A DNA stretch of 64,000 bases from Sphingobium subterraneum (GTDB lineage Bacteria > Pseudomonadota > Alphaproteobacteria > Sphingomonadales > Sphingomonadaceae), in NCBI RefSeq assembly GCF_014199435.1, contig NZ_JACIJP010000006.1, forward strand, positions 62,001-126,000, given 5' to 3'. Shown here in pieces: positions 40,434-56,744 of this stretch. Position numbers and translations under genes: made by a program. The notes under the pieces are model-generated. The model saw only the letters and a list, made by a program, of their open reading frames with translations. It made no database searches and was not told the origin of the DNA. Position 1 is the first letter of the stretch; each line of letters begins with the position of its first letter.

Positions 40434-40710
40434 TTCGTTAGTCCTCCCCTTACGTTGTTTTCGGTTGTGATAGGCGCCAAACGGATAGAGCGCGCCCAAA
40501 GCGATGCTCAGGATCTACCACGAGGTAACCCTGAACATAATAGACGGGCGCATTCTCAAAACGATCACTTCATCCACGAAACTGATCGCGCCACGCCGGA
40601 AAATGCGCTTTTCGGGGCGTCGGATCGCAGCGCTTTGGCGTTGGAGCGCGTTGCGGGCACAATGACGACCCACATCCGGGATATTTCTGATCCGCGAATG
40701 CGGACCTTAT

Positions 40711-40888: not shown

Positions 40889-41989
40889 ATGTCAATTAAG
40901 AGTATGGCCGCGGTCGCCTTCCAACCCCATGAGGCGCTCAAAATAGAACTGATTGATGTCGATGCACCGCAGGCTGGGGAAGTGTTGGTCGAGATGAAGG
41001 CGACCGGCCTTTGTCACACGGATCTTCACGCCATGGAGGGGAAATCTACCGCCGGGATCGCGTTTCCGGGCATACCTGGTCATGAGGGCGCCGGCATTGT
41101 GCGCGAAGTCGGGCCGGGCGTGACAAGTGTTGCACCGGGCGACCATGTCGTCTCGTTTCTCGCGGAATGCAAAGTCTGCCCCACCTGCCTGTCGGGCAAA
41201 AGCAACCTGTGTGATCAGGTCGTGATAGATGACTTTGTCGCGCGGTCGCGATTTTCGGTAAACGGTCAGCGAGCATTCCCTTTTCAGGGTCTCGGCACCT
41301 ACACCCAATATTCCGTCATCCGGGAAGTGTGCCTGGCCAAAGTGCGCAAAGATGCACCGTTTGACCAGTTGTCTTATTTTGGCTGCGCGGCGAGCACCGG
41401 AATCGGCGCGGCATTATTCACGGCGAAAGTGGAGCCGGGCAGCAGCGTCATCGTGTTTGGTATGGGTGGCGTGGGACTGAATATTGTCCAGGGCGCGCGC
41501 CTCGCGGGTGCGCGGCAAATCATCGCCGTCGATATCAACGACGACAAGAAGTCGATCGCCATGCTCATGGGCGCCACCCATTTCGTCAATCCCAAGACAA
41601 TAGCCGGCGACATCGTCGGACATCTCAATGAACTGACGGGCGGCGGGGCCGATTTCACGTTCGAAGCCGTGGGAAGCACCGCCCTGATGCGGCAGGCATT
41701 CGAAGCCGCGCGCTACGGATGGGGCGTCTGTACCGTGGTGGGTCTCGCCGAAGACGGAGCGTCTGTGGAAGTCCCCGCTTACAGCCTCTTGGCCGGGCGC
41801 AAGATCCAGGGATCTCCGGCGGGCGATGTAAAGGGCCGCACCCAGATCCCCCAGCTGGTCGACTGGATGATGGACGGCAAAATCAACGTGAGGGATCTTA
41901 TCTCGTCCCACCTTACCCTCGAGAATATCAACACCGGCTTCGACATGATGCGGCGCCACGAAGGAATCCGCTCGGTCGTAACCTTCTGA
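40889..41989 (+). CDS. Zinc-dependent class III-type alcohol dehydrogenase
   Basis: This is a 366-residue NAD-dependent alcohol dehydrogenase. Catalytic zinc ligands C42 (GLCHTD) and H65-E66 (GHEGAG) are present, as are structural zinc cysteines C94, C97, C100 and C108 (CKVCPTCLSGKSNLC). The NAD-binding turn is FGMGGVGLN. It resembles the glutathione-dependent formaldehyde and aryl/terpenyl alcohol dehydrogenase branch. The start follows GGAGAG. It is followed by the SDR-TetR pair after a further promoter, so it is probably its own unit. It probably oxidises a primary alcohol group of the compound handled here. Confidence 0.9.
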   Translation: MSIKSMAAVAFQPHEALKIELIDVDAPQAGEVLVEMKATGLCHTDLHAMEGKSTAGIAFPGIPGHEGAGIVREVGPGVTSVAPGDHVVSFLAECKVCPTCLSGKSNLCDQVVIDDFVARSRFSVNGQRAFPFQGLGTYTQYSVIREVCLAKVRKDAPFDQLSYFGCAASTGIGAALFTAKVEPGSSVIVFGMGGVGLNIVQGARLAGARQIIAVDINDDKKSIAMLMGATHFVNPKTIAGDIVGHLNELTGGGADFTFEAVGSTALMRQAFEAARYGWGVCTVVGLAEDGASVEVPAYSLLAGRKIQGSPAGDVKGRTQIPQLVDWMMDGKINVRDLISSHLTLENINTGFDMMRRHEGIRSVVTF

Positions 41990-42099
41990 GATCGTGGTTC
42001 CTGCGCGCTGGCGGAGCTTCCTGCTTCGCGTGCGTTGGTGATCGCCTTCATGAAACCCTCCCCGCCCTGCGAATGGCGTCCCGCCCGACAACCCTAGAC

Positions 42100-42116
42100 A
42101 ATGACCAATAGTCATT
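42100..42116. promoter_or_regulatory. Upstream TetR operator AATGAC-N5-GTCATT
   Basis: Perfect 6-bp arms. Its centre is 20 bp from that of the next copy, placing both on the same helix face upstream of the SDR-TetR operon. Confidence 0.7.
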
Positions 42117-42120
42117 ATAT

Positions 42121-42135
42121 ATGACCATTGGTCAT
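42121..42135. promoter_or_regulatory. Downstream TetR operator ATGACC-ATT-GGTCAT
   Basis: Perfect 6-bp arms around ATT, ending 15 bp before the SDR start. It is the second half of a tandem operator; the regulator is most likely the TetR protein encoded at 42933 in the same operon. Confidence 0.75.
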
Positions 42136-42150
42136 TTAGGAGTACGGACG

Positions 42151-42936
42151 ATGAGACGCGATTATGCTGTGGTGACGGGCGCTTCGAGCGGACTGGGGGT
42201 ATCGCTGGCGACGGAGCTGGCACGGCGCGGTTATGATCTGGTGATGGTCGCCCGCCGGGAAAAGCCCATGCAGGAGCTGGCGGATCGGCTGCGCGATACC
42301 TTCGGAACGTCCAGCGTGATCGAGGCCTTGGACCTGGCCCAGATCGGCAGTGCGGCGGAGTTGCATGCCCGCCTCGGGAAGCAGGGCATTTCGCCCAAGG
42401 TGCTGGTCAATAATGCCGGGTTCGGCCTGAACCATCCCTTTCTGGACGAAGATCCGGCCCGTCTTCAATCCATGTTGCAACTCGATATCGTCGCCCTGAC
42501 GGAACTCACGCAGATCTTCGGTCGGGACATGCGCGAACAGGGCAGCGGGCATATTTTGCTCGTGGGGAGCCTTGCCTCCTACCAACCCGCTCCCCTCATG
42601 GCGGCCTATGCTGCGGCCAAGGCGTATGTATTGTCGCTGGGCGAAGCACTGAACGTCGAACTCGCACCCAAAGTGGGAGTGACGGTGCTGTCGCCCGGTC
42701 TGATGGAGACGGAATTCAACGACGTATCGGGATATCAGACTCCGGCTTCGCTTCGGGCAACCATTCTCAGCACGGACAGGGTGGCGGAGATAGGCCTCGA
42801 TGCCTTGTTTGCCGGAAAACCGACCGTCATTGCGGGCCGAATGAACAAGGCCATCGTGTTCAGCAGCCGCTTGCTTCCGCGTCACGTGTCAGCCAAAGGT
42901 ACGTACAGAATGGCACAAAAATCGCTGAATACATGA
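42151..42936 (+). CDS. Short-chain dehydrogenase/reductase
   Basis: This is a 261-residue classical SDR. The NADP(H)-type turn is TGASSGLG followed by RR (MVARREKP), NNAG is at ~90, and the active-site YxxxK reads AAYAAAK. It would interconvert an alcohol and a ketone or aldehyde. I start at ATG 42151, after TTAGGAGT; an ATG at 42121 is in frame but lies inside the operator. The stop overlaps the TetR start (ATGA), so the two are coupled. Substrate unknown. Confidence 0.9.
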   Translation: MRRDYAVVTGASSGLGVSLATELARRGYDLVMVARREKPMQELADRLRDTFGTSSVIEALDLAQIGSAAELHARLGKQGISPKVLVNNAGFGLNHPFLDEDPARLQSMLQLDIVALTELTQIFGRDMREQGSGHILLVGSLASYQPAPLMAAYAAAKAYVLSLGEALNVELAPKVGVTVLSPGLMETEFNDVSGYQTPASLRATILSTDRVAEIGLDALFAGKPTVIAGRMNKAIVFSSRLLPRHVSAKGTYRMAQKSLNT

Positions 42937-43610
42937 CGAAATGGGCGTATGGCAACGAGGACAAATTGGCGCGTCGCCAGACTATTCTGGCGGCGGCCGC
43001 GCGCCTTTTTGAAGAAAGCGGCGCCCTGCCGACCGCAAAGGAAATAGCGGAGGCCGCCGGGCTCGCCAAAGGGACGGTCTACCTGTATTTCGAGACCAAG
43101 GAAGAAATATTCGCCACCCTCCTGCTAAACGGATGGACGAGCGTCGCGGACGAAATCGATGCCGCCTGGAGTAAGGCGGCGGGGTCCCGGCAGGATAAGA
43201 TAGACGTATTTCTGCGAGCCTGGATCGGTGCCTTGAGCGAGCGCAGAAAGCTTCTGGAACTGGATGCCCTCGGCTATGGAATGCTCGATCGGAATTTGGA
43301 CCGGGAGATCTCTGAGCGCCTCAAGCACACGTTTCTGCAGCGACTGGGGCAGTCTGGAGCGCTGATCGACAGCGCTTTTTCTCTCGTTTCCCCACGCGGA
43401 CTACAGATATTGATGCGTTCCTACGCGCTGATGCGCGGGTTATGGCAATCGGGCGTGGGCATTCGATCGGCCGATATGTCGGACCATTGCACCTGGAGCG
43501 GTGCCGACCCCGGACTTTTCGACCAGGAGTTATACGACGCGCTTGTCGAATATTGGGGCGGCGCTCTGAGCCGCCCGGCACATTTCGCCTCCGAGGCGCA
43601 GAACCGCTAG
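42933..43610 (+). CDS. TetR-family transcriptional regulator
   Basis: This is a 225-residue TetR regulator. The helix-turn-helix lies at residues ~15-60 (AARLFEESGALPTAKEIAEA, then KGTVYLYFETKEEIF). The ligand domain is all-helical with aromatic residues (WSGADPGLFDQELY) near the end. It overlaps the SDR gene by four bases and converges on the acyl-CoA ligase with a four-base overlap of the two ends. The two palindromes at 42100-42135 are its probable auto-regulatory sites. Confidence 0.9.
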   Translation: MTKWAYGNEDKLARRQTILAAAARLFEESGALPTAKEIAEAAGLAKGTVYLYFETKEEIFATLLLNGWTSVADEIDAAWSKAAGSRQDKIDVFLRAWIGALSERRKLLELDALGYGMLDRNLDREISERLKHTFLQRLGQSGALIDSAFSLVSPRGLQILMRSYALMRGLWQSGVGIRSADMSDHCTWSGADPGLFDQELYDALVEYWGGALSRPAHFASEAQNR

Positions 43611-45139
43611 CCGATGCTGCGCGAATGCCCCTCCCAGAAAGGCTTGCGCAGTTCCGTTTTCAGAATCTTGCCGACCGGCGACAGAGGCAACGACGTATAG
43701 CGGAACTCGCACGACTTGGGCCTCTTGTAATTCGCAATAAGAGGCGCGCAGTGGCTCACAAGCTCGGCATCGGTCAGGACGCTGCCCTCTCTTAGCTGCA
43801 CGATGGCGTGCACCTTCTCGCCCCATACCGGATCGGGCACCCCAATAACCGCGCATTGCACGACATTTTCATGGCGCATGATCGCATTTTCGACTTCGAC
43901 CGAATAGATGTTCTCGCCACCCGAAACGATCATGTCCTTTACGCGATCGACGAGAAACAAATAGCCGTTTGCATCCAGATATCCGGCATCGCCCGTCCGT
44001 ATCCAGCCGTTCACCAATACTTCGCTGGTCAGCTCCGGCTTGCCCCAATAGCCCTTCATGACGCATGGGCCGCGTGCAACGATCTCTCCGACCTGGCCCG
44101 CTTCGAGCTCCATTCCGTCTGCGTCGGCAATCTTCAGATCGACGCCAGGCAATTGCCGCCCGGCCGACCGCAACAGTCCTTTCATATGGTCGGCGTGGTC
44201 CAGCACCGTGACACAGGGCGATAGCTCCGTCTGCCCGTAGCTCTGGCACAGCGTGGCGTTGGGGAAGGCTGCCAGCGCCTGCTTGAGAAGCGTGTCGGAA
44301 ATCGGCGAGGCACCATAGGTCAGTCTGCGAATGCCCGCGAGATTGGTTTTCCGCTCCCGCAGTTTCTCGCAGATCATGCCAATCATGGTCGGCACCAACA
44401 CGAGCGCCGTCACATTATATGTTTCCATGGCATCAATGGCCGCGTCCGGATCAAAGCTCGGAAGTACGGCATGGGTCGCGCCTATCAGGCTCATCCCGAA
44501 GATATGAAAAGCATCCGCCAGATGGAACATGGGGGGGATGTGCAGGAAAACGGCATTGGTACCATAGGGCTCCGCGGCGTTTACCAGCAGGAAGTTGGTC
44601 AGAAGATTGGTGTGGCTGAGCATGACCCCCTTCGATTGCCCCGTCGTTCCGCCCGTATAGAAGATGGCGGCGAGATCGTCTCCGTGACCACATGCGTCTT
44701 CGATAGCCTCATGCGTGCCGAGGAGCGACGTGACGGAGGGAAACTCCAGATCGTCTTCCAGGCCGATGACCGTCATTCCCGTGGCAGCCAGCATCCTGCC
44801 CTGTTCGGCGAAAACCCGATCCACTATTATGATGGACGGAAGACTGTCGCGAATGGCTTCATCGAGTTCTGCTGGTGCCCAGCGGGTGTTGAACGGCACC
44901 GCCACACAGCCGGCCCAGGCAATGGCGTAATAAGCTAGGATATAGCGGTCACTGTTCAGAGCAAGGATAGCGATACGGTCGCCTTTTTTGGCTCCCTTGG
45001 CCCGCAAGGCCCCCGCTAGGGGGGCCACTTGCTGCGCCAGTTCGCTCCAGGATGTTGTGCGTTCGCCAAAGATGGTCGCTGGCCGCTCACCATAAAGGCG
45101 CGCACTTCGGCGCAATCCCTGTGTCAATTGCATCGCCAT
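43607..45139 (-). CDS. AMP-dependent acyl-CoA ligase (last gene of the branched-acid operon)
   Basis: This is a 510-residue ANL-family CoA ligase with the phosphate loop FYTGGTTGQSKGVMLS, QSYGQTELSP, RTGDAGYLDANGYLF, and a C-terminal PVGKILKTEL lysine. It would load the imported acid onto CoA, the entry step for the enzymes encoded upstream. It is the final gene of the minus-strand operon that starts with the acyl-CoA dehydrogenase at 52006, 50 bp after the crotonase gene. Confidence 0.92.
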   Translation of the reverse strand: MAMQLTQGLRRSARLYGERPATIFGERTTSWSELAQQVAPLAGALRAKGAKKGDRIAILALNSDRYILAYYAIAWAGCVAVPFNTRWAPAELDEAIRDSLPSIIIVDRVFAEQGRMLAATGMTVIGLEDDLEFPSVTSLLGTHEAIEDACGHGDDLAAIFYTGGTTGQSKGVMLSHTNLLTNFLLVNAAEPYGTNAVFLHIPPMFHLADAFHIFGMSLIGATHAVLPSFDPDAAIDAMETYNVTALVLVPTMIGMICEKLRERKTNLAGIRRLTYGASPISDTLLKQALAAFPNATLCQSYGQTELSPCVTVLDHADHMKGLLRSAGRQLPGVDLKIADADGMELEAGQVGEIVARGPCVMKGYWGKPELTSEVLVNGWIRTGDAGYLDANGYLFLVDRVKDMIVSGGENIYSVEVENAIMRHENVVQCAVIGVPDPVWGEKVHAIVQLREGSVLTDAELVSHCAPLIANYKRPKSCEFRYTSLPLSPVGKILKTELRKPFWEGHSRSIG

Positions 45140-45189
45140 CTCCTTTGTCTTATCCGCCGTGTTCGTGTCGTAAGCGTAACCAGATCACT

Positions 45190-46002
45190 TCATGGCCGGG
45201 CGGAACGAAATGCTTGCGCCGCCGCCCTGAATTCCTCGCTGGCAAAAGCCTCGCTTTGCAATCGAGCTTCAAGGGACATCAGGTCGCCCACGCTCAACAA
45301 TGCGGCTTGCCCGACAGCCTGTTTCGCAAAGGCCACTCCCCGCCACGGCTTGTCGGCGAGATTGCGCGCGCGCTCCCTGGCGGCTTTCGACAGCTCGTCG
45401 GGGGCCACAACCGCATTTACGAGACCCAAAGCATGGCACTCTTGCGCAGTTATGCGCTGACCGCCGGTCAAGATATCGAACGCCCTCTTACGGCCTATCT
45501 GCCGGACGAGGTGCCAGCTCGTTCCCCCATCCGGCGCAAGCCCGAGGCCAGCAAAGGCAAACAGAAAAAATCCATCGGACGCCATGAGCGTGAGGTCACA
45601 TGCCATCGCAAGCCCGCAGCCGACGCCCACGGCACCCCCGTTTACCGCCGCTATATATGGCTTTGGCGCGTTCATAATTGCCATGAAGGTCGGCTTTATC
45701 CGCTCTTCAATTTCCCGGCCGGCATCGAAATCCTCGGGCAGGTCTTCTAATAAATCGGCGCCCGCCGAGAAACCCGCACCTGCTGCCTCGATGATGACCA
45801 CGCGGGTATCGGCATCGTCATTGGCCCGGTTGACCGCGTCGGCGAGCTGGTGACGAAAACGGGCTCCGAACGCATTTCGTGCATGAGGCCGGTTGAGTCG
45901 GATGATCGAGAGATCGCCCTCCGTAAGGAGGAGAACGTCATCGTGCGCCGTCCGGTCCGCGCCGTCGTTATGATGTGTGGACTGGGCACCCTTGCCGCTC
46001 AT
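45190..46002 (-). CDS. PaaG-like enoyl-CoA isomerase/hydratase
   Basis: This is a 270-residue crotonase-fold protein. The oxyanion segments FSAGADL and NGGAVGVG are present. Both catalytic Glu of classical hydratases are missing (GCGLAM and FLFAFAGLG), while the Asp in LAPDGGTSW is the residue used by PaaG-type enoyl- and epoxy-acyl-CoA isomerases. An isomerase role (shifting a double bond during branched or ring-acid oxidation) is therefore more likely than hydration. ATG 46002 overlaps the racemase stop (ATGA), which fixes the start; the frame runs up to 46101. Confidence 0.83.
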   Translation of the reverse strand: MSGKGAQSTHHNDGADRTAHDDVLLLTEGDLSIIRLNRPHARNAFGARFRHQLADAVNRANDDADTRVVIIEAAGAGFSAGADLLEDLPEDFDAGREIEERIKPTFMAIMNAPKPYIAAVNGGAVGVGCGLAMACDLTLMASDGFFLFAFAGLGLAPDGGTSWHLVRQIGRKRAFDILTGGQRITAQECHALGLVNAVVAPDELSKAARERARNLADKPWRGVAFAKQAVGQAALLSVGDLMSLEARLQSEAFASEEFRAAAQAFRSARP

Positions 46003-47096
46003 CCCTGGCTCCACTTCTGCAAAAGCTTTTCGCCATCGCCGGCTTTGCCGATCGCACCGGGCGTTCGGGAAAATCGCGGGACCGGTGCGTTCTGGGTGCA
46101 AGGACCGACATCCCTATACCCACCACGAGACACAATATGCGGATCAACCATGGCCTCTCCCACCGTCAGCACGGGCGTAAAACAGACGTCGTGATCGTCC
46201 AGCAACTCCTGCCATTCGGCTCGCGTTCGCTGGAGAAAAATCGCTTCCAGAATTTGGCAGTGCGCTCCCCATTTCTCCGTTGCGCCCTGTTCATCTACAA
46301 GGTGCGACGGCGCTCCCATGCGGCGGATCAGTTCGGCATAGAAGGGCGGCTCGATTGCACCGATGGCCACGTCCTTGCCGTCCGCACAACGATAACAGCG
46401 GTAGAAGGGAGCCACTCCGGCAAGCAGGTTGCGATCGCGTTCCAGCGAGATGGCACCGGCAGCATGGGCACCGACCAACAACGCCATCAGCGAAGATGTC
46501 CCGTCGATGATCGCGGCATCGATAACCTGGCCCAGGCCCGATCGCTCGCGTTCCCACAGAGCCGCCATGATGCCGAAGGCGAGCATCATCGATCCGCCTC
46601 CGAAATCGCCCACCAGGTTCAAGGGCGGCAACGGCGGTTCGTCGGCTTTCCCCATGGCCGCAAGAGCGCCCGTCAGGGCAATGAAGTTGATATCATGCCC
46701 CACTCTGGCGGACCGGGGGCCAGTCTGTCCCCAGCCGGTCATTCGTCCGTAAACGAGTTTGGGATTACGGGCGAGCACGACATCCGGCCCCAGCCCGAGC
46801 CGTTCCATGACACAGGGGCGATAGCCTTCGATCAGTATGTCGGCCTTATCCAGAGCGGCAAGGCATCGCTCCCGGCCAGCCGGGGCATGGAGATCCAGTT
46901 CAATGGAATGCCGTCCCCTGTCGACAACCGGGTTCGGCCATCCATTGCCGCCCGGACGGTCGATCCTGAGAACCTCGGCACCGAGATCGGCAAGCAGCAT
47001 TGCGCAATGCGGACCCGGCCCGATTCCGGTCAACTCCACAACGCGCAAACCGGTGAGGGGTCCAGCGCTGCTATCGGAGGACGCCGCGAAGGTCAT
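45999..47096 (-). CDS. Alpha-methylacyl-CoA racemase (CaiB/BaiF family)
   Basis: This 365-residue family III CoA-transferase-fold protein carries the racemase signature. H134 (VGHDINF) and D164 (NLVGDFGGG) are 30 residues apart, as the catalytic His and Asp are in alpha-methylacyl-CoA racemase; the Asp used by CoA transferases in this family is not at its place. The enzyme converts (2R)- to (2S)-2-methylacyl-CoA so that acyl-CoA dehydrogenase can act. It overlaps the SDR stop upstream and the crotonase start downstream by four bases each, so translation is tightly coupled. Confidence 0.87.
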   Translation of the reverse strand: MTFAASSDSSAGPLTGLRVVELTGIGPGPHCAMLLADLGAEVLRIDRPGGNGWPNPVVDRGRHSIELDLHAPAGRERCLAALDKADILIEGYRPCVMERLGLGPDVVLARNPKLVYGRMTGWGQTGPRSARVGHDINFIALTGALAAMGKADEPPLPPLNLVGDFGGGSMMLAFGIMAALWERERSGLGQVIDAAIIDGTSSLMALLVGAHAAGAISLERDRNLLAGVAPFYRCYRCADGKDVAIGAIEPPFYAELIRRMGAPSHLVDEQGATEKWGAHCQILEAIFLQRTRAEWQELLDDHDVCFTPVLTVGEAMVDPHIVSRGGYRDVGPCTQNAPVPRFSRTPGAIGKAGDGEKLLQKWSQG

Positions 47097-47878
47097 GAGA
47101 GCCTCGCCGCATCGCCGACGCCGCCAAAGGCGGTCCAGCCGCCATCAACCGGCAGGACCGCTCCGGTAATGTAGGCCGCGAAATCCGAGCACAAAAAGGC
47201 GACCGCGTTCGCAATATCCTCCGGCTTCCCAACCCGCCCCAGCGGCACGCGCGCCGCAACACTGTCGGTTGTGCCGCCTGATCCGGTCATATGCCCCAGC
47301 ATCGGCGCTTCAATCACCCCTGGCGCAACAGCGTTGACGCGCACGGTGTAGCGGGCAAGTTCACAAGCCAAAGTCTTGGTCAACATGATGAGAGCTGCCT
47401 TCGAAACGCCGTAGGCGTGCGAGCCAGGAAAACCTGTCATCCCGGCGATCGACGCTATGTTGACAATATTCCCCGACCGCCGCTTTTTGAAACTTTCCGC
47501 TGCGGCCCGGCTCATGAGATACGCCCCTTTGAGATTGACATCCATCACGCGTTGCCAGTCTTGAGGGTTTTGTCGTGTGATGGCCATAAGAGGCTCGGGA
47601 ATGCCTGCATTGTTAATCAGGCAATCGAGACCATGAGAGCGCTCGATCCGCCCCATCATTTCCGCCACGCTTGCTTCGGACGTAACGTCACCGGGCAGCG
47701 CGAACGCTCGGTCGCCCAGTTCTTCCGCCCGCGCCTCGGCGGACTCGACGACGATATCGTTGATCGCGACCGTAGCACCCGCCGCCAGTAATCCACGCGC
47801 AATACCAAGTCCGATGCCACTGCCCGCGCCGGTGACAAGCGCGACCTTTCCCTTCAGGTCGATCGTCATCCCCGGCAT
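47093..47878 (-). CDS. Short-chain dehydrogenase (3-hydroxyacyl-CoA dehydrogenase candidate)
   Basis: This is a ~261-residue SDR with TGAGSGIGLGIARG, NNAG, SIAGMTG with the catalytic Ser, and YGVSK. It resembles 3-hydroxyacyl-CoA/3-oxoacyl reductases. The start could be ATG 47878 or 47869; neither has a strong ribosome site, and an upstream frame to 47944 runs into the previous gene. It lies between a second SDR (40-bp gap) and the racemase (four-base overlap). One of the two SDRs probably oxidises the 3-hydroxy intermediate; the other may act on a ring hydroxyl. Confidence 0.87.
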   Translation of the reverse strand: MPGMTIDLKGKVALVTGAGSGIGLGIARGLLAAGATVAINDIVVESAEARAEELGDRAFALPGDVTSEASVAEMMGRIERSHGLDCLINNAGIPEPLMAITRQNPQDWQRVMDVNLKGAYLMSRAAAESFKKRRSGNIVNIASIAGMTGFPGSHAYGVSKAALIMLTKTLACELARYTVRVNAVAPGVIEAPMLGHMTGSGGTTDSVAARVPLGRVGKPEDIANAVAFLCSDFAAYITGAVLPVDGGWTAFGGVGDAARLS

Positions 47879-47918
47879 GGAGTACACAGCCGGACGTCTC
47901 TGCCGGGCCGCACAGCCG

Positions 47919-48746
47919 TCATATGCTGATGCCGCCGCCAACAATGAGGACCTGACCGCTGATGTAATCGCTTTCCGGGATACACATCAGATAGACGCCG
48001 CCCGCCGCCTCCTCTGCATGGCCAGCCCTGCCCAGCGGAACCATGTGCTTGAGATTTTCGAGAACAGCCCCCGGTACGCCTGCCTGAATGGCCTTGCCCT
48101 CGATCTCGATTTTTGTTTCGGGATTATCCATCGCCTTGGTGAGCCGGGTCTCGATGAACCCGAAGGCCACGCAATTCACGCAGACCTTGTAGCGCCCCCA
48201 CTCCTTCGACATGGTCTTGGTCATGCCGACAAGTGCTGCCTTCGCAGACGAATAGTTGATCTGGCCCGCATTGCCATGGGTGCCCGCCATTGAAGAGATG
48301 TTGACGACCTTGCGGATAACCTCTCGCCCCTCAGCGGCCTCCACTTTGGCTTGTACGCGAAGATATTCGGACGCCGCGCGCAGTATTCGGAAGGGAGCCA
48401 CGACATGCACATCGAGCATGGCCTGAAACTGCTCGTCGGTCTGCTTCTGGATCACGCCATCACGCGTATACCCGGCGTTATTGACAATGATGTCGAGTCC
48501 CCCGAACGTGTCCAATGCCGTCTGAACGAAGCGCTCGCCAAAGTCCGGTGCGGTGACATTGCCGACACACGCGACCGCATCGCCGCCCGCAGCCTTGATC
48601 GCGGCAACGACCTCGGCAGCCGGGGCGTCATCCAGATCATTCACCACAATCTTCGCACCATCTGACGCCAGCTTGAGCGCAAGCGCTCTGCCGATCCCCC
48701 GGCCCGAACCCGATATCAGCGCCACTTTCTTGTCGAGCTTACCCAT
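47919..48746 (-). CDS. Short-chain dehydrogenase resembling the D-bifunctional-protein dehydrogenase domain
   Basis: This is a 275-residue SDR with GSGRGIGRALALKLASDGA, VVNDLDD, NNAGYTRDG, NISSMAGTHGNAGQINYSSAK and a SGQVLIVGGG end. The VVNDL turn and the NxGQxNYSSAK segment are shared with the dehydrogenase domain of MFE-2/D-bifunctional protein, which oxidises (3R)-hydroxyacyl-CoA. That stereochemistry matches the MaoC-type hydratase encoded just upstream. ATG 48746 is preceded by GAGG; the frame extends to 48809. Confidence 0.88.
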   Translation of the reverse strand: MGKLDKKVALISGSGRGIGRALALKLASDGAKIVVNDLDDAPAAEVVAAIKAAGGDAVACVGNVTAPDFGERFVQTALDTFGGLDIIVNNAGYTRDGVIQKQTDEQFQAMLDVHVVAPFRILRAASEYLRVQAKVEAAEGREVIRKVVNISSMAGTHGNAGQINYSSAKAALVGMTKTMSKEWGRYKVCVNCVAFGFIETRLTKAMDNPETKIEIEGKAIQAGVPGAVLENLKHMVPLGRAGHAEEAAGGVYLMCIPESDYISGQVLIVGGGISI

Positions 48747-48759
48747 TTTTATCCTCGTA

Positions 48760-49191
48760 TTAATCCAGAGCAATGATGGCTTCGCCGCCCAGCGTTTGCG
48801 TGGCGTCATCGATCCAGGAGCCTATCGACAGGCGCGCGAGCCGCTCGCCATTGTCGGTAAATATCTCCGTCACCTCGCCGCGACATATGACCGTGGCATA
48901 CAGCGGCGTGATGGCCATGAAGCGCACATTCCACGTTCGGAGGCGCTCCTGCGGTACCCAGTGCGTGATCATCTGGGCAAGGTACGCCATCGAGAGCATT
49001 CCGTGCCCGAACACATCGGGCATCCCGGCGGCTTTTGCGAAGTCGCTGTCGATATGCAGCGGCACATGATCGTTCGAGGCACCGGCGAAGAGCGCCAAGG
49101 TTCCACGGTTGAGAGGCCCCATCGCATGGTCGGGCAAACGATCACCGACTGCCAACGCGGCCGTGTCGACATATTGAACGGGGCTAACCAT
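48760..49191 (-). CDS. MaoC-type (R)-specific enoyl-CoA hydratase, catalytic subunit
   Basis: This is a 143-residue single hotdog-fold MaoC protein with the hydratase-2 motif: D41 and H46 in SNDHVPLHID, followed by FGHGMLSM. These are the catalytic Asp and His of (R)-specific enoyl-CoA hydratases. It overlaps the next MaoC gene upstream by eight bases and precedes the SDR by 13 bp. With its partner it would form an unequal heterodimer, as ChsH1-ChsH2 does in steroid side-chain degradation. Confidence 0.88.
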   Translation of the reverse strand: MVSPVQYVDTAALAVGDRLPDHAMGPLNRGTLALFAGASNDHVPLHIDSDFAKAAGMPDVFGHGMLSMAYLAQMITHWVPQERLRTWNVRFMAITPLYATVICRGEVTEIFTDNGERLARLSIGSWIDDATQTLGGEAIIALD

Positions 49192-49642
49192 TGCGCACCA
49201 CCGTCACGACCTGCATTTCCACGCATAATTGACCCGCAGCATTCACGCCCTGCGTCTTTTGCGTGATGAACTCCAGCGCCCCGCCCTTCTTGTCGTAAAT
49301 GTCGGTGGTCGTGGTCGTAAGCGTCATCCGATCCCCAGCGTAGATGGGCCGGTGATAGGTAAAGCGCTGCTCGCCGTGCAGAATGCGACGGACATCGACG
49401 CCAATCCCGTTTTCGGGGTCAAAGATATCGCCTCGCTTGGCGGGTGCGCCAAGCTGCAACGAAAAGAGAAACGTCGGTGGAGCGGGGATGGTCGGATGAC
49501 CGGCGGCACGAGCGGCCTCTTCATCGAAATAAACGGGGTTAATTTCGCCCGTCGCCTTCGCGAAGAAGCGTAGCTGCCCTTTCTCCACATCGATTTCCCT
49601 CGGCTCCGACACCACGCCGATATGGCTGCGATCGATGGCCAT
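49184..49642 (-). CDS. MaoC N-terminal-type (FAS1-DH-like) hydratase partner subunit
   Basis: This is a 152-residue hotdog-fold protein. It has FAKATGEINPVYFDEEAARAAG, matching the first lines of MaoC-like dehydratase domains, but the catalytic Asp-His pair is replaced (GEINPVYFD), so it is probably the non-catalytic half that shapes the pocket for a bulky acyl group. ATG 49642 lies two bases after the thiolase stop. The gene overlaps the catalytic subunit gene. The coupled synthesis fits a fixed 1:1 complex. Confidence 0.85.
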   Translation of the reverse strand: MAIDRSHIGVVSEPREIDVEKGQLRFFAKATGEINPVYFDEEAARAAGHPTIPAPPTFLFSLQLGAPAKRGDIFDPENGIGVDVRRILHGEQRFTYHRPIYAGDRMTLTTTTTDIYDKKGGALEFITQKTQGVNAAGQLCVEMQVVTVVRNG

Positions 49643-49644
49643 GG

Positions 49645-50832
49645 TCAGTTCGCTTTGCCGTACATAGTGACGACGCACGCGCCGCCCAAGCCCAGATTAT
49701 GCTGAAGCGCATGCTGTACTTTGTCGACCTGCCGCTTGTCCGCCGAGCCGCGAAGCTGATGAGTCAGTTCATAGCATTGCGCCAGTCCGGTCGCGCCAAG
49801 CGGATGCCCCTTGGACAGTAGGCCGCCGGAGGGGTTGGTGACGTGTTTCCCACCATAGGTATTCTGCCCGTCGAGGATGTAGGCTTCCGCTCCACCCTCG
49901 GGGCAAAGGCCGAGCGACTCATAGGTGATCAGCTCGTTCGCCGTGAAGCAGTCATGAAGCTCAACGACCTGAACATCATCGGGACCGACGCCCGCTTCCT
50001 CATACACCTGCCGCGCGGCTTCCTTGGCCATGTCGAACCCGATGACGCTCATCATGGAGCGGCCCTCGAATGTCTGCGCATAGTCGGTCGTCATCGACTG
50101 GGCGACGATCTCCACCGACGCATCCAGCCCATGCTTCTTGGCGAAGGCGGGCGACACCAGTACGGCCGCCGCCGCGCCACATGTCGGCGGGCACGCCTGA
50201 AAGCGGGTCAGCGGCCCATAAAGCGGCTTGGATTCCATCACCTCTTCCAGCGTCAGCGGATCGCGAAAGATGGCCAACGGGTTGTTGGCGGCATGCCTGC
50301 GGGCCTTGACCGAAATCATGCCAAAGGTTTCGTTCTTCGTTCCATAGCGTTGCTGGTGATCCACCCCACCGCCGCCGAACTGCTGCGCCGCCATCGGCGC
50401 CGCATCGTCCCACCCCTGAATTTCCGTTTGCTTCGTCAGATGGAAATCGAGCGTGCGCTTCCGGTCATTGAAAATCATGCCCAGTGCTCCAGGCACCATC
50501 TGCTCGAAACCCAGCGCCAGCACACAGTCCGCAACACCGGCAGCCACCATCTGGCGGGCCAGATACAGGGCGGTCGATCCCGTCGAGCAGTTGTTGTTGA
50601 CATTGACGATCGGAATGCCCGTGATCCCGACACGATAAAGGGCAGACTGGCCCGCTGTAGAATCGCCGTACACATAGCCGACATAGGCCTGTTGGATCTG
50701 GTCGTAGGACAAGCCTGCATCTTCCAGCGCGAGCCGTGTGGCTTTTTCGGCCATGACATCCCAGTCTTCGCACTGGCCGGGTTTCTTGAAGGGTATCATG
50801 CCGACACCCGCTACTCTGGCTTTGATATTCAC
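49645..50832 (-). CDS. SCP-x-type thiolase / lipid-transfer thiolase
   Basis: This is a 395-residue thiolase-fold protein of the SCP-x/lipid-transfer group rather than the FadA group. The nucleophile is C82 (NNNCSTGS), with HDCFTANE and GHPLGATG as the other active-site segments. SCP-x thiolases cleave 3-oxo-2-methylacyl-CoA; relatives called Ltp2 act as aldolases with a DUF35 partner. No DUF35 gene is seen here and the active-site Cys is intact, so thiolysis is more likely. It lies between the acyl-CoA dehydrogenase (22 bp) and the MaoC pair (2 bp). Confidence 0.9.
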   Translation of the reverse strand: MNIKARVAGVGMIPFKKPGQCEDWDVMAEKATRLALEDAGLSYDQIQQAYVGYVYGDSTAGQSALYRVGITGIPIVNVNNNCSTGSTALYLARQMVAAGVADCVLALGFEQMVPGALGMIFNDRKRTLDFHLTKQTEIQGWDDAAPMAAQQFGGGGVDHQQRYGTKNETFGMISVKARRHAANNPLAIFRDPLTLEEVMESKPLYGPLTRFQACPPTCGAAAAVLVSPAFAKKHGLDASVEIVAQSMTTDYAQTFEGRSMMSVIGFDMAKEAARQVYEEAGVGPDDVQVVELHDCFTANELITYESLGLCPEGGAEAYILDGQNTYGGKHVTNPSGGLLSKGHPLGATGLAQCYELTHQLRGSADKRQVDKVQHALQHNLGLGGACVVTMYGKAN

Positions 50833-50854
50833 GACTTTCTCCTTGCCGCCCCGC

Positions 50855-52006
50855 TCAGAGGGAGCGCCCGATGATCCGTTTCATGATTTCATTGGCACCG
50901 CCGTAAATGCGGGCCACACGTGCGTCGGCGAACAGCCGCGCGATGGGATATTCCTGCATATATCCATATCCGCCGAACATCTGCTGACAGCCGTCGATCA
51001 CCCGGAACGCCGTGTCGGTGGTCCAGAGCTTCGCCATCGCCGCCGTCGTTGCGTCCAGCTCGCCGTCGAGCAGCCGCACCATGAGCGCGTCCACGAATTC
51101 ACGCCCCACCGCGGCCTGTGTCTTGGCATCCGCAAGCACAAACTGCGTGTTCTGCTGGTCCATCAGCCGCCCGCCAAAAACGCTGCGATCCTTGACATAT
51201 TCGATCGTCAATTCGACTGCCCGCTCCATATTGGTCTGGGCATTCAGCGCGATCATCAGCCGCTCCCACGCCAGCTGGGACATGAGTTGTCCGAAGCCCT
51301 GCCCCGGCTCTCCGCCCAGCAGATTGTCGGCGGGGACGAACACGTCATCGAAGAACAGCTCCGATGTGTCCTGACCGTGCAACCCCAGCTTTTCCAGATT
51401 GCGCCCGCGCCGAAATCCGTCGACCTTGTCCGCCTCGACCATGAGCAGAGACATGCTCCCGGTACCCTTGGCATTGTCCGTCTTCGCGACGACGCAGATG
51501 AGATTCGCCGTCTGACCGTTACTGATGAAGGTCTTCTGCCCGTTCAGGCGATAGCCATTGCCTTCGGCCACCGCCTTCGTGCGGATCGCTTGCAGATCCG
51601 ACCCCGCGCCGGGTTCCGTCATCGCGATGGCGGCGACGCTGCGCCCGCTTGCCATATCGGGCAGCCAGCGCTCCTTTTGCGCCGGGGTAGCGTAACTCAG
51701 AATATAATGGGCCACGATGGCCGAATGGATGCCATGCGCGATCCCGAAACTGCCCGCCAGACCGGCCCGGGCGAGCTCATGCTGGATCACCGCTTCATGC
51801 GCCAGCGTACCGCCACTTCCCCCAAATTCTTCGGGGATACTGGCGCCCAGAAGGCCCGCCTGCCCCGCCTTTGCCCAGGACGCCCTGTCTATTTGCCGCT
51901 CACGCTCCCACTGCTCCGCCTTTGGCAGAAGCTCGGTCGCGATAAATCGCGCGACGCTGTCTTGTAGCATGACAAGATCTTCGCCAATCCATGAGACTTT
52001 TGACAA
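50855..52006 (-). CDS. Acyl-CoA dehydrogenase, first gene of the branched-acid operon
   Basis: This is a ~383-residue FAD-dependent acyl-CoA dehydrogenase. MTEPGAGSDL binds FAD, GQKTFISNG follows, and the C-terminal GGYGYMQEYP...YGGANEI replaces the Y-E-G-T of medium-chain enzymes. The usual C-terminal catalytic Glu is thus Gly, as in the long-chain and isovaleryl types that use a Glu elsewhere. The start is uncertain: TTG 52006 (SKVSWIGEDL) or ATG 51970. The longer frame from 52045 would place the operator at 52024 inside the gene, so I reject it. It leads a ten-gene operon (52006 to 43607). Confidence 0.88.
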   Translation of the reverse strand: MSKVSWIGEDLVMLQDSVARFIATELLPKAEQWERERQIDRASWAKAGQAGLLGASIPEEFGGSGGTLAHEAVIQHELARAGLAGSFGIAHGIHSAIVAHYILSYATPAQKERWLPDMASGRSVAAIAMTEPGAGSDLQAIRTKAVAEGNGYRLNGQKTFISNGQTANLICVVAKTDNAKGTGSMSLLMVEADKVDGFRRGRNLEKLGLHGQDTSELFFDDVFVPADNLLGGEPGQGFGQLMSQLAWERLMIALNAQTNMERAVELTIEYVKDRSVFGGRLMDQQNTQFVLADAKTQAAVGREFVDALMVRLLDGELDATTAAMAKLWTTDTAFRVIDGCQQMFGGYGYMQEYPIARLFADARVARIYGGANEIMKRIIGRSL

Positions 52007-52023
52007 ATACAGAACCCTATATC

Positions 52024-52035
52024 TACCGTTCGGTA
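52024..52035. promoter_or_regulatory. TetR operator TACCGTTCGGTA at the head of the branched-acid operon
   Basis: Perfect 5-bp arms TACCG/CGGTA, extended by C/G to 7 bp on each side. It lies between the acyl-CoA dehydrogenase and the TetR gene on the same strand. Related copies are at 52872 and 54156. Confidence 0.75.
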
Positions 52036-52135: not shown

Positions 52136-52774
52136 CTAGCTTCGTTGAAGGCCGCGCAAAACAATGTCGAGATAGGCCTCTGCCACTTCGCGTGGACGAA
52201 GAGACCCTTCGTTGTTGAACCACCGCGGTATTCCGTTGAACGCTCCGAACAGCGCCCTTGCAGCCAAGAGCGGATCACACGGTGCGACCGACCCATCCGT
52301 GTGTCCTTCGCTGATCATGTCCGCCACCGCCCGCTCGATCTTGCGCAGCATTGTAACCACCTTGGCACCCGTATCGGGGCTCAGCGCCTTATGATCAACC
52401 AACGCGACGCAACGGCCAAAATCCCCGCACATCACTTCCGTATAGGACACGAAAAAGCTCGCAATCCTGCCAACCGCACTCATCTTTGTGCGGCGCGCAC
52501 TTTCGATAACCTCCATCAGCTCGACATGGGTAACCATCATGCACTGAAACAGCAGGTCATCTTTGTTTTTAGCATAATAATAGAGGACAGGCTTCGAAAC
52601 GCCGATCCGCTCTGCGAGGCTGTTGACGGACGTCTGGTGGTAACCATCCGCAGCAAATGCGAGTGCGACCTTGTGCAGAATTTGCATCCTTTTGGCCTCG
52701 AAGGCTGGGCGGTCTAAAGTTGCAATCTCCGTGGGGGCTGCCTTGGGCATTGGGGTCCATTCATTCCCTGACAT
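52136..52774 (-). CDS. TetR-family regulator of the branched-acid genes
   Basis: This is a 212-residue TetR regulator with its helix-turn-helix at ~30-78 (FAADGYHQTSVNSLAERIGV, then LYYYAKNKDDLLF) and an all-helical ligand domain (VMCGDFGRCVAL, RWFNNEG). It lies directly upstream of the acyl-CoA dehydrogenase operon on the same strand, separated by 129 bp that hold an operator. Three TACCnnnnGGTA palindromes near its gene define its probable targets. Start 52774 or 52750. A branched acyl-CoA is the likely inducer (inference). Confidence 0.9.
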   Translation of the reverse strand: MSGNEWTPMPKAAPTEIATLDRPAFEAKRMQILHKVALAFAADGYHQTSVNSLAERIGVSKPVLYYYAKNKDDLLFQCMMVTHVELMEVIESARRTKMSAVGRIASFFVSYTEVMCGDFGRCVALVDHKALSPDTGAKVVTMLRKIERAVADMISEGHTDGSVAPCDPLLAARALFGAFNGIPRWFNNEGSLRPREVAEAYLDIVLRGLQRS

Positions 52775-52871
52775 GGTCGCATCCCGGCCAAACCGAGCGA
52801 GCAGGATGGAACATCTCTTTACGCAACAAAATCTCCTTTTAAAGCGAAAAGACGATTTGACTGTGTGATTT

Positions 52872-52883
52872 TACCGTTTGGTA
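52872..52883. promoter_or_regulatory. TetR operator TACCGTTTGGTA
   Basis: Arms TACC/GGTA with matching spacing, 29 bp upstream of the crotonase start. It lies between the divergent TetR and crotonase genes, so it could serve both. Confidence 0.72.
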
Positions 52884-52912
52884 TACATTCGATCACAACG
52901 AAAGGCATCACC

Positions 52913-53704
52913 ATGAATTTTGATACGCTGCTGATGACCCGGCGCGACCGGACGCTGACGATCACGCTCAACCGGCCAGACCGTCTGAATGCGTTCGATG
53001 CGCAGATGCATACGGAGCTCCCACACGCAATCTCGCTGGCCACCCATGACGCGGAAAGCGATCTGATCATCCTGACGGGCGCCGGGCGGGCATTCAGCGC
53101 GGGCGGCGACCTTGATTGGCAGGAAGACGCCGCCCGTCGGCCCTTCATGTTCGAGCAAACGGTACGGGAAGCGAAGCAGATCGTCTATGGAATGATTGAT
53201 TGCGAAAAGCCGATCATCGCCAAGATAAATGGTCCGGCCGTTGGCCTCGGAGCGACAATTGCCGTGTTATCCGACATCAGCTTTATCGCCGATGACACCT
53301 ATATCGCCGACCCGCATGTGAACATCGGCATGGTCGCTGGCGATGGCGCCGCCCTGATCTGGCCCCAATTGATCGGTTTCGCCCGCGCAAAGGAATATTT
53401 GTTTACCGGCGACCGGATCGGGGCGGCGGAAGCGGCCCGCATCGGCCTGGTAAACCACGCCGTTGCGCGCACGGAACTCGATGCATCGGTAGACGCCTTC
53501 GCAGACCGCTTGGCCAAAGCTCCGCAACAGGCCCTACGCTACACCAAAATGACGATCAATGTCGCGCTGCGCGCCATGGCCGGAGCGGTAATGGACGTAG
53601 GGCTAGGCTATGAAAGCGTCACCAATATGTCGGCGGACCATCTGGAAGCCCTCCGAGCCTTCCGCGAGAAGCGCAAGCCGACCTTTCAAACCCAAAAGGA
53701 ATAA
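52913..53704 (+). CDS. Enoyl-CoA hydratase/isomerase family protein
   Basis: This is a 263-residue crotonase-fold protein. FSAGGDLDWQE and NGPAVGLGATIA form the oxyanion hole. The classical catalytic Glu pair is not conserved (ATIAVL and ADPHVNIGMVAGDG), while the DG in the latter segment may supply another acid, so the exact reaction is uncertain. AAGG precedes ATG 52913; the frame opens at 52865, within the operator. It is divergent from the TetR gene and shares its operator. It probably works with the minus-strand operon. Confidence 0.87.
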   Translation: MNFDTLLMTRRDRTLTITLNRPDRLNAFDAQMHTELPHAISLATHDAESDLIILTGAGRAFSAGGDLDWQEDAARRPFMFEQTVREAKQIVYGMIDCEKPIIAKINGPAVGLGATIAVLSDISFIADDTYIADPHVNIGMVAGDGAALIWPQLIGFARAKEYLFTGDRIGAAEAARIGLVNHAVARTELDASVDAFADRLAKAPQQALRYTKMTINVALRAMAGAVMDVGLGYESVTNMSADHLEALRAFREKRKPTFQTQKE

Positions 53705-54362: not shown

Positions 54363-56744
54363 ATGGAAAACGGATGGAAGGGACAATGGAAGCTGGCGAC
54401 CCGGCTGCTACTGGGGGCCATATTAGCCGAGCAATGCGCGATGCAGTCCGGATGGGCTCAGTCTACGCCAAGCAGCGGCACAGTTGCGGAGCGCAATGGC
54501 GAAACGGACGAATGGATCCCGGATATCATCGTCCAGGCTCGCAGGACTTCCGAGAACCAGCAGGCTGTACCGCTGGCCGTCTCCACGGTGGAGGGTGACA
54601 GGCTCAGACAGGCGGCCGCCTCATCGGTGAGCGATATTCAAAGGCTCGTGCCGTCGCTCCAAATTCAGCAGGGCGCCACAGGGCAGCAGGACTTTACCAT
54701 CCGTGGTTCTTTTGGCGGCTTCGGCGTCGACCCCGCGGTGATCACCTATATAGACGAAGTTCCGATAGACGCCCGTACCCTCGTATATGGGCTGTTTGAT
54801 CTGCAATCATTGCAGCAACTAAAGGGTCCACAAGGTACATTGTTTGGCCGCAACAGCACCGGAGGCGCGGTCCTGTTTTTCTCTTCACGCCCGGATCCTG
54901 AAAATCTGGGTGGTTACGCGACACTCCGTTATGGCAATTTGGACGAACGGCGCGCGGAAGGTGCGCTCAATATTCCGGTGACGCCGCATCTGGCAGTGCG
55001 CGTGGCGGGCCAGCTTGAACGACGCGACGGCTATATCAGAAGCGTGACGGTGCCGTCGCTCGACTTTGAGAACCGCCATAACGGCGCGCTCCGTGCCAGC
55101 GTTCTCTGGGAGCCCAGTTCCGTCGTCGAAAATTATACGCAGTTCACGCATTACAGGGTTCGCGAGAATCGCAACCCTCAGCGCATCACGGCGCTCGCGA
55201 CGCCGTGCACCGGTCCGACGACGCCGGCTCCGACCTGCCTCTATCAGCCGCCGTTCAGCACGATCCTGGGTACAGACAACATCCTGCCCTATTTTCTGCA
55301 GCAGCAGGCGTTGTCTTCACACCGCACGGTCGCGGACGATCCGCACCGCGACGACGTAGACCGCGACTCCATCACGAATTCGCTGACCCTGAAACTGGGC
55401 GGCATCAATCTGCGCAACATTCTCTATTATGGAGATGTCAATGTGGGGTGGAACCGCGACTATGACGGTACTCCCGCCCGCGTCATTGACTCCTTCTACG
55501 ACGATCATATCCAGACAACCTACGTCGAGACGCAGATTTACGGCACGCTGTTCTCCGATCGGTTGAACTGGCGGATCGGCGGCGTTTACAGCAAGGACAA
55601 GGGCAATCAGTCGCAGACGACGACGCTGTTTCCCCTCCCCCTGTCGCTATCAACACCCAAGACCACCCGCGCCCGCACGAATTTCGTGTCCAAGGCACTG
55701 TTCGCGCAGGCAAGTTATGATCTCTCCGATCTGTTGCGCGGCGTGACGGTCACAGCAGGATATCGCTATACGTGGGACGACAGGTCGATCAAAACCACTG
55801 TATTTCAGGGGGCACCCGTTCAGCAATGCGGGCTGCAGACTTTGCCGGTTCCGACTACAGGACCTGTTCCGTATCCCAATACCGATCTAACAACATGCAC
55901 GCGCTTCCTGAAAAAAAGCTTCAAGGATTATAATATCAATGCTTCGGTGGATTGGAAAATCACAGACCGAATTCTGACCTATGTTGCCACGCGCCGGGGT
56001 TACAAGACCGGGAGTTTCAACAATTTTGAATCGAACCCGGCTCTGGCCTCCTATTCTCCGGAAATCGTGACAGATATTGAAGGCGGGCTTAAGGCGGACT
56101 GGAAGGTCGGCTCGATGCCCGTTCGAACCAATATCGCGGTGTTCCGCTCCAAATACGACAATATTCAGACATCGACGGTGTCGATCAACCCATCGTCCGG
56201 TGACGTGACGGTCATCGTGCTCAATACAGATCCGTTGACGGGATTGTCGAGCAAGGCAACCATCAAGGGTTTTGAAATCGAGGTCAACGCCGCGCCGACA
56301 CGCTGGCTTCAGCTCTCGGGCTTCTACAGCAAGATTCGCGCAAAATATGACCGGTTTGTCGTACCGGGCGTCAATCTCGATATCAGTGGTCAGAACGTGG
56401 CTGGCGTTTTTCCCGAAACCTATGGCGCGACGGCGCAGCTCGATATTCCGGTCAACGGACCGGTGGAATCGATCGGTGCAACCGTCAGCTATTATTATCG
56501 GGCAAAGCCCCTCACAAATGCGACGACGACCGTGGATACGGGACATAGCAGTTCGATTGACGCGCGGGTTTCCGCCCGCAACCTGTTTGGATCCGGTGTG
56601 GATGTCGCTATCTTCGGCAAAAACCTTGGCGACAAGATTGCGTGCGCGACCAACACCCTTGTTGCCGGGGCATTGACCGACACCTGCTCCGAACCACGCA
56701 CTTACGGTATCGAGCTGGGTATCCGCTTTGGCGGCAAGCGCTAA
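54363..56744 (+). CDS. TonB-dependent outer-membrane receptor
   Basis: This is a 793-residue receptor. The signal peptide ends near GWAQ, DIIVQARRTSENQQAVPLAV begins the plug, LQQLKGPQGTLFGRNSTGG is the plug hallmark, and the last strand ends GIELGIRFGGKR. GGGAGGGG precedes ATG 54363. The tannase-family gene starts 28 bp after it, so uptake and ester cleavage are encoded together. The operator at 54156 ties it to the branched-acid TetR regulator; the receptor would import the esterified or conjugated substrate. Confidence 0.93.
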   Translation: MENGWKGQWKLATRLLLGAILAEQCAMQSGWAQSTPSSGTVAERNGETDEWIPDIIVQARRTSENQQAVPLAVSTVEGDRLRQAAASSVSDIQRLVPSLQIQQGATGQQDFTIRGSFGGFGVDPAVITYIDEVPIDARTLVYGLFDLQSLQQLKGPQGTLFGRNSTGGAVLFFSSRPDPENLGGYATLRYGNLDERRAEGALNIPVTPHLAVRVAGQLERRDGYIRSVTVPSLDFENRHNGALRASVLWEPSSVVENYTQFTHYRVRENRNPQRITALATPCTGPTTPAPTCLYQPPFSTILGTDNILPYFLQQQALSSHRTVADDPHRDDVDRDSITNSLTLKLGGINLRNILYYGDVNVGWNRDYDGTPARVIDSFYDDHIQTTYVETQIYGTLFSDRLNWRIGGVYSKDKGNQSQTTTLFPLPLSLSTPKTTRARTNFVSKALFAQASYDLSDLLRGVTVTAGYRYTWDDRSIKTTVFQGAPVQQCGLQTLPVPTTGPVPYPNTDLTTCTRFLKKSFKDYNINASVDWKITDRILTYVATRRGYKTGSFNNFESNPALASYSPEIVTDIEGGLKADWKVGSMPVRTNIAVFRSKYDNIQTSTVSINPSSGDVTVIVLNTDPLTGLSSKATIKGFEIEVNAAPTRWLQLSGFYSKIRAKYDRFVVPGVNLDISGQNVAGVFPETYGATAQLDIPVNGPVESIGATVSYYYRAKPLTNATTTVDTGHSSSIDARVSARNLFGSGVDVAIFGKNLGDKIACATNTLVAGALTDTCSEPRTYGIELGIRFGGKR

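Follow-up and report, generated by a model that had tools for sequence, protein, structure and literature searches.

What kind of acid is broken down by a compact catabolic operon of Sphingobium subterraneum, and through which series of steps? The operon lies on the minus strand of a 64,000-nucleotide stretch of contig NZ_JACIJP010000006.1 (positions 62,001 to 126,000 of the contig; this whole stretch is called the window, and its numbering is used here unless another locus is named). A preliminary description had compared it to the set with which mammalian peroxisomes oxidize pristanic acid and bile-acid side chains (AMACR, ACOX, D-bifunctional protein, and SCPx) and had counted ten genes between 43607 and 52006. 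All of the enzymes that it named were located there, but the span holds nine catabolic genes; the tenth gene of the run, which encodes a TetR-family regulator (52136 to 52774), lies outside it. Read from 52774 down to 43607, the order is TetR, acyl-coenzyme A (acyl-CoA) dehydrogenase, SCP2-type thiolase, FAS1-like MaoC subunit, MaoC hydratase subunit, two short-chain dehydrogenases (SDR1 and SDR2), racemase, crotonase, and ligase. By their mechanically called starts, neighbors overlap or are separated by 50 bases or fewer; the one wider gap, of about 130 bases, separates TetR from the probable start of the dehydrogenase gene. Family membership and catalytic residues give good support to the parallel with peroxisomal oxidation of alpha-methyl acids, and the operon is likely to run one complete beta-oxidation cycle on alpha-methyl or other alpha-alkyl acids.

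The enzymes and the proposed cycle

The protein encoded at 45999 to 47096 belongs to the CaiB/BaiF family and is identified here as an alpha-methylacyl-CoA racemase. Its best solved relative is 1x74 of Mycobacterium tuberculosis (360 bits, with 1x74 and its relatives at 328 to 360 bits), compared with 127 bits for the best CoA-transferase match. It is 51.2% identical to MtMCR over 336 positions, and H126, D156, and E241 of MtMCR, which we take to be the active-site triad of the racemase, align with its H134, D164, and E249. The first two of these residues had been named correctly in the preliminary description, and E249 is conserved as well. A CoA transferase, which that description had listed as a finding that would count against it, was not encountered; as far as sequence can tell, such an identity is rejected by the bit scores and by retention of the triad. 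As a control, eight of the nine other CaiB/BaiF proteins in the genome were aligned (the ninth, a short open frame, was left out). These weaker paralogues are 23 to 29% identical to MtMCR, and all eight lack both the His and the Glu. The triad is also present in 125 of 138 aligned family members, a count that carries little information because most rows were picked for their likeness to the racemase.

The thiolase (49645 to 50832; 395 amino acids) passes the NCBIfam model PRK08256 at 673.9 bits (cut-off, 436) and matches SCP2-thiolase type 1 (PDB 6hsj) at 456 bits, with the next class at 203. It retains C82, H293 and C295 within an HDCF motif beginning at 293, and H343 within GHP (342 to 344). 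Scores and motifs, used here in place of a tree, gave no sign of a position outside the SCP2 group. The earlier term "SCP-x-type" therefore holds for the SCP2-type thiolase part, whereas the sterol-carrier domain of full SCPx is not present, the 395 residues being thiolase domains only. The aldolases Sal1, Sal2, and Ltp2 belong to the same superfamily and, in the available part of PMC8399759, are described as missing the thiolase Cys. A steroid aldolase of the Sal/Ltp2 type is ruled out as the identity of the operon enzyme, in which the catalytic Cys is present.

The two genes upstream of SDR1 encode the MaoC pair that the preliminary description had recognized. The MaoC hydratase subunit (48760 to 49191; PF01575, 57.2 bits) carries the catalytic D41 and H46, and its nearest solved structures are HadB-type proteins. 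In the FAS1-like subunit (49184 to 49678; PF13452, 139.9 bits; PF22622, 36.6 bits), the catalytic pair is replaced by E45 and Y50, and this subunit is probably an inert partner of the active one. Pairing of an active with an inert MaoC unit is known from HadAB, ChsH1/ChsH2, and MFE-2, and the arrangement in the operon resembles the hydratase 2 of MFE-2, in which one hot-dog half is active and the other inert. SDR1 (47919 to 48809; YSSAK motif at 186) is a probable (3R)-hydroxyacyl-CoA dehydrogenase. Its best solved match is the (3R)-hydroxyacyl-CoA dehydrogenase 2et6, from a yeast-type multifunctional enzyme, at 222 bits, compared with 155 for the best FabG.

The first oxidation departs from the peroxisomal set. 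The enzyme encoded between 50855 and about 52006 (the TTG start is taken from the sequence; the mechanical open reading frame begins at 52045) had been likened to ACOX, but it is a dehydrogenase whose nearest solved relatives are 2pg0 and human LCAD. Its 396 amino acids comprise three acyl-CoA dehydrogenase domains, an architecture that rules out an ACOX oxidase, and ACOX_C_alpha1 scores just 37.6 bits. It keeps the Glu of the ERL (WERL) motif at residue 260, numbered from the TTG at 52045, as do the aligned solved relatives; the LCAD entry 8w0z has Gln there. Where 5ol2 has Glu, the operon enzyme has Gly. We take the ERL Glu to be the catalytic position of LCAD and isovaleryl-CoA dehydrogenase, and the Glu of 5ol2 to be that of MCAD. 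The last gene of the run encodes an AMP-binding acyl-CoA ligase (43607 to 45139; PF00501, 278.5 bits).

From these families we infer both an order of reactions and their stereochemistry. The ligase would make the CoA ester of a 2-methyl (or other 2-alkyl) acid, and the racemase, by interconverting its 2R and 2S forms, would allow the whole pool to enter the cycle. The dehydrogenase would then form the 2-enoyl-CoA, the MaoC pair, with its one active and one inert subunit, would hydrate it to the 3R-hydroxy form, and SDR1 would oxidize this to the 2-alkyl-3-oxoacyl-CoA. Cleavage by the SCP2-type thiolase would yield a shortened acyl-CoA and propionyl-CoA, or a homologue set by the branch. The families of racemase, 2-enoyl-CoA hydratase 2, 3R-dehydrogenase, and SCP2-type thiolase are common to the operon and the peroxisome. 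The operon, however, has a dehydrogenase instead of an oxidase, encodes hydratase and 3R-dehydrogenase as separate genes where the D-bifunctional protein (MFE-2) is one chain, lacks the sterol-carrier domain, has an SDR1 nearer to the yeast-type than to the mammalian dehydrogenase, and forms a single transcription run with its own ligase.

Recurrence of the gene set and the case for straight chains

Every enzyme family of the operon is already known, and each step has been described in other organisms. The core of the set is a recurrent cassette and is not peculiar to the source genome. The FAS1-like MaoC subunit was used as a probe, at an E value of 1e-20, on genomes drawn from the phylum and from the class. 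It matched in 13 of the 397 others in the phylum draw and in 17 of the 323 others in the class draw; these draws overlap and yield 30 distinct places in all. Of these, 23 were examined (20 as loci L199 to L218, plus L164, L168, and L172) and seven were left out. Neighbors were counted within 6 kb, or for the racemase within 12 kb or to the end of the 13 to 20 kb fetched, at identity thresholds of 50% for SDR1 and thiolase, 42% for dehydrogenase, 40% for ligase and SDR2, and 35% for racemase. All 20 loci have the MaoC hydratase subunit and 18 have SDR1; the thiolase occurs in 13, the dehydrogenase in 11, the ligase in 8, the racemase in 5, and SDR2 in 1. Another 16 loci, to which the thiolase or plasmids had led, were picked for having the cassette rather than fairly sampled; they held thiolase (16), MaoC (16), SDR1 (15), dehydrogenase (9), ligase (8), and racemase (8). 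Two of the loci examined, L177 and L184, have annotations that suggest near copies. The closest core cassette, L164, has an SDR1 75%, a thiolase 67%, MaoC subunits 58 to 59%, and a ligase 55% identical to those of the operon, and neither a dehydrogenase nor a racemase relative was found within reach of it.

The thiolase-MaoC-MaoC-SDR block thus recurs across genomes of the class and phylum and on replicons elsewhere. Plasmids of Rhodococcus and Cupriavidus oxalaticus bear the same gene set, and PLSDB also places the cassette on other Rhodococcus and on Tsukamurella plasmids and on replicons of Cupriavidus, Caballeronia, and Variovorax. The cassettes of R. pyridinivorans YC-JH2 (plasmid pRJH3), Rhodococcus sp. 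AQ5-07, R. qingshengii RL1, and C. oxalaticus T2 combine the same thiolase, two MaoC subunits, SDR, dehydrogenase, racemase, and ligase, although order and regulators differ and their racemases are just 45 to 51% identical to that of the operon. Within the family of the source organism, the thiolase was found at an E value of 1e-100 in 12 of 248 other genomes, with no match in the four listed genomes of its own genus. Because its presence in family and genus is so patchy, the operon was likely gained by transfer.

Do these enzymes act on alpha-branched acids at all? The operon could instead serve beta-oxidation of straight-chain or aryl acids, with the CaiB/BaiF protein a CoA transferase or incidental. 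Ligases and dehydrogenases of these families mostly act on unbranched acids, and in 15 of the 20 loci L199 to L218 the racemase is missing from the 13 to 20 kb fetched. Where a racemase does occur beside the cassette, however, it is there far more often than its frequency in the same genomes would predict. The 19 genomes behind these loci contain 41 racemase-family matches (E value, 1e-40) in 95.1 Mb, from which 0.17 would be expected in the 393 kb fetched, compared with the 5 found (Poisson P of about 1e-6); the expectation may be conservative if the 41 matches include CoA-transferase-type proteins. The five cassette racemases come from five taxonomic families, and all have the H-D-E triad. 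Together with the triad and the 51% identity to MtMCR that set the operon protein apart from its eight paralogues, this enrichment makes straight-chain or aryl substrates unlikely.

Several observations weigh against a cycle dedicated to alpha-branched acids. The racemase alone speaks directly for alpha-branching, because SCP2-type thiolases and MaoC/SDR pairs also serve straight chains. The 15 loci without a racemase count here as well, and the operon racemase is closest (up to 65% identity) to racemases that sit outside cassettes. For the racemase, 147 loci were named; in the best 80, some of which end early at contig ends, no thiolase relative exceeded 39% identity at an E value of 1e-20. 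Because its nearer relatives lie outside cassettes, the operon racemase may have joined the cassette separately. The mammalian counterpart of SDR1 is also distant: 1gz6 (17beta-HSD4) reaches 106 bits, lower than most FabG entries listed, so that the earlier likening of SDR1 to the D-bifunctional-protein dehydrogenase stands for the yeast-type enzyme and less well for the mammalian one. Finally, SDR2 (47093 to 47944) and two crotonase-family enoyl-CoA hydratases/isomerases, one within the operon (45190 to 46101; PF00378, 172.4 bits) and one divergent from it on the plus strand (52865 to 53704; likely ATG at 52913), have no assigned step in the proposed cycle. They may act on an additional hydroxyl group, double bond, or branch. 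SDR2 has relatives at 57 to 58% identity in L199 and in a Sphingopyxis sp. JAI128 locus. At that Sphingopyxis locus (L013:9998-12722), a racemase, a crotonase (69% identical to that at 52865 to 53704), and an SDR (58% to SDR2) are adjacent, and the run also includes two DUF2817 proteins and two thiolase-fold proteins.

A wider reading is conceivable, though we put it forward tentatively and regard it as less probable than its negation. The thiolase-MaoC-MaoC-SDR block, along with dehydrogenase, ligase, and in many cases a racemase, might move horizontally as a self-sufficient unit for alpha-branched acids, a bacterial equivalent of D-bifunctional protein plus SCPx in unfused form. Such a unit would be common to Pseudomonadota and Actinomycetota and in some hosts would have been recruited to man-made branched acids such as 2-ethylhexanoate. 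The cassette seems to be undescribed: no account of it was found among the papers listed from the open-access literature, with most subscription journals outside that search.

Steroids, 2-ethylhexanoate, and other candidate substrates

Which branched acid is used? The preliminary description had named a steroid, an isoprenoid, or another 2-methyl acid; a steroid would make this a side-chain operon for sterol 26-oic or bile acids. DUF1302 and DUF1329 proteins, often met in steroid degraders, adjoin the close cassette L164, with relatives also in L205 and L211, and the contig that contains the operon also encodes a 3-ketosteroid-dehydrogenase-like protein, at a distance of about 44 kb beyond the window. 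MtMCR serves in mycobacterial breakdown of the cholesterol side chain, and Mcr belongs with the actinobacterial pathway (ChsE, ChsH1/ChsH2, Hsd4A, FadA5), which likewise performs beta-oxidation of an alpha-methyl acyl-CoA with paired MaoC subunits and an SDR. According to the available part of PMC6678751, that pathway uses ChsH1-ChsH2, a proposed Hsd4A, and a thiolase, FadA5, which is trifunctional-enzyme-like; the operon thiolase is of the SCP2 type.

Two markers of steroid-nucleus degradation, HsaA and KstD, were checked in the source genome, and in contrast to cholesterol degraders both fell below cut-off. The best HsaA match reaches 250 bits (cut-off, 450), with an intradiol-dioxygenase-like gene two genes away. 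For the KstD-like protein, three steroid-dehydrogenase models with cut-offs of 789, 788, and 793 give scores of 470, 418, and 344, and the model that fits it best, at 662 (cut-off, 758), is for an unassigned FAD oxidoreductase. None of the ten models listed reaches its cut-off for this KstD-like FAD dehydrogenase (L220:9831-11543), whose gene adjoins those of an alpha/beta hydrolase and a cyclase-family protein. The proteobacterial bile-acid clusters (Scd, Shy, Sal, Sad) have ligase, dehydrogenase, and MaoC hydratase in common with the operon. Their Sal, however, is a Cys-less aldolase, and a DUF35-bearing partner is, with the loss of Cys, a feature of Sal/Ltp2 aldolases in the portion of PMC8399759 available, whereas the operon encodes a true thiolase with its Cys and a domain scan of its ten proteins found no DUF35 domain (the rest of the genome was not searched). 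The estrogen edc/OpA cluster of Novosphingobium tardaugens, also a sphingomonad, has a lipid-transfer protein, MaoC hydratases, and dehydrogenases too, together with P450 and EdcC genes that the operon lacks; the main text of that paper, as available (PMC7793797), does not use the term "racemase." In another sphingomonad, Caenibius tardaugens, deletion of an igr-like operon did not stop growth on cholate, as reported in the available part of PMC12882949. With both nucleus markers below cut-off and an intact thiolase Cys, a steroid side chain is a very improbable substrate.

The least probable of the readings weighed here is a route for acids like 2-ethylhexanoate released from plasticizer or phosphate esters, since nothing ties S. 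subterraneum to such compounds. The same enzymes would be needed for alpha-ethyl branching. The cassette is carried on two plasmids of R. pyridinivorans YC-JH2, pRJH3 and pRJH1, and the pRJH3 copy lies 2.3 kb from a Tn3 transposase gene, with lipase-family and recombinase genes near. On pRJH1 (L228), the PLSDB table has a second copy of the pRJH3 cassette, in which the AMP-binding gene is in two pieces and several genes are unlisted. A two-member consortium that includes YC-JH2 degrades 2-ethylhexyl diphenyl phosphate, whose hydrolysis gives 2-ethylhexanol; in the part of PMC13418517 available, however, the user of that alcohol is not specified and the other member is a Sphingopyxis, and the identity of the YC-JH2 strain rests on its name. 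In Mycolicibacterium MBM, inhibition by acrylic acid supported beta-oxidation of 2-ethylhexanoate, and the main text of that paper, as available, does not contain the word "racemase" (PMC10134610).

For the alpha-branched acids that we favor, two further leads concern their origin. A lipase-family gene lies near the pRJH3 cassette and an alpha/beta hydrolase gene near that of AQ5-07. Genes for DUF3089, a lipase-like domain, occur near the pRJH3 cassette and in L154, and an esterase gene occurs in L155; L154 and L155 hold only the thiolase and SDR1 of the core genes. Near the operon itself, the window contains beta-lactamase-family and tannase-type esterase genes. These hydrolase and esterase genes near cassettes suggest that the substrates are acids or alcohols freed from esters. 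A link to acyclic terpenes is a weak lead only. In L199, the cassette is preceded by an AtuA-domain gene whose end lies about 2.8 kb away, and in Roseovarius the annotation places such a gene 4.6 kb from a thiolase-SDR1 pair. The source genome has one AtuA relative (L226, about 10612-11520), 50% identical to the L199 gene and not beside the operon. It sits instead in a catabolic cluster (L226:5497-13120) with DUF4387, two class V aminotransferase, ligase, and citrate-type transporter genes.

Regulation, surroundings, and significance

The regulator has TetR_N and TetR_C_24 domains, and its best NCBIfam match is FadR of Bacillus (47.8 bits, below the cut-off of 200). The palindrome TACCGTTCGGTA (52024 to 52035), a probable TetR operator, precedes the likely start of the dehydrogenase and matches the pattern TACCGNNCGGTA exactly. 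This pattern occurs at two places in the whole genome, one of them being 52024 to 52035, compared with ten occurrences per strand for a reversed, uncomplemented control. A second copy with one mismatch, TACCGTTTGGTA (52872 to 52883), lies in the gap that separates TetR from the divergent crotonase, which is transcribed away from TetR, 29 bases upstream of the likely crotonase start. Three matches with at most one mismatch were found in the window against a chance expectation of 1.03, and since 8 of 100 shuffles gave at least three, the evidence for an operator is placement, not number. From this placement we infer that TetR is probably a repressor of both the operon and the divergent crotonase through the common palindrome, and that the crotonase probably belongs to the same regulon. 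Against this, ACCGNNCGGT was at no consistent place across 36 cassette loci, so that the operator is unconserved there. Scans for promoter-like sites (2, fewer than the shuffle mean of 3.6) and terminator-like sites (11, within one standard deviation of the shuffle mean of 8.6) were uninformative.

The surrounding DNA is a broad catabolic island. Five TonB-dependent receptor genes lie within about 42 kb (21419 to 63106 of the window), at 21419 to 23815, 26857 to 29424, 38196 to 40499, 54363 to 56744, and 60827 to 63106, among amidase, esterase, tannase, and beta-oxidation genes; three were recognized through Pfam, and those at 38196 and 54363 by sequence reading only. Convergent with the operon, on the plus strand at 40889 to 43610, are genes for a class III-type alcohol dehydrogenase (385 bits, below the cut-off of 544), an SDR, and a TetR protein, and this trio could supply an acid from an alcohol. 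At 58537 to 60681, a molybdopterin oxidoreductase gene lies between a tannase and a TonB receptor gene; its product weakly resembles formate dehydrogenase alpha (184 bits; cut-off, 666).

Breakdown of alpha-branched acids fails in human AMACR, D-bifunctional-protein, and SCPx deficiencies. If the operon does run the proposed cycle, its one-operon bacterial version would be a tractable system for the whole series of steps. The chemistry of alpha-branched acids would be relevant to isoprenoids, fossil hydrocarbons, and plasticizer alcohols, and a compact gene set would mark the organisms that degrade such acids, providing a marker for searches of genomes and plasmids.

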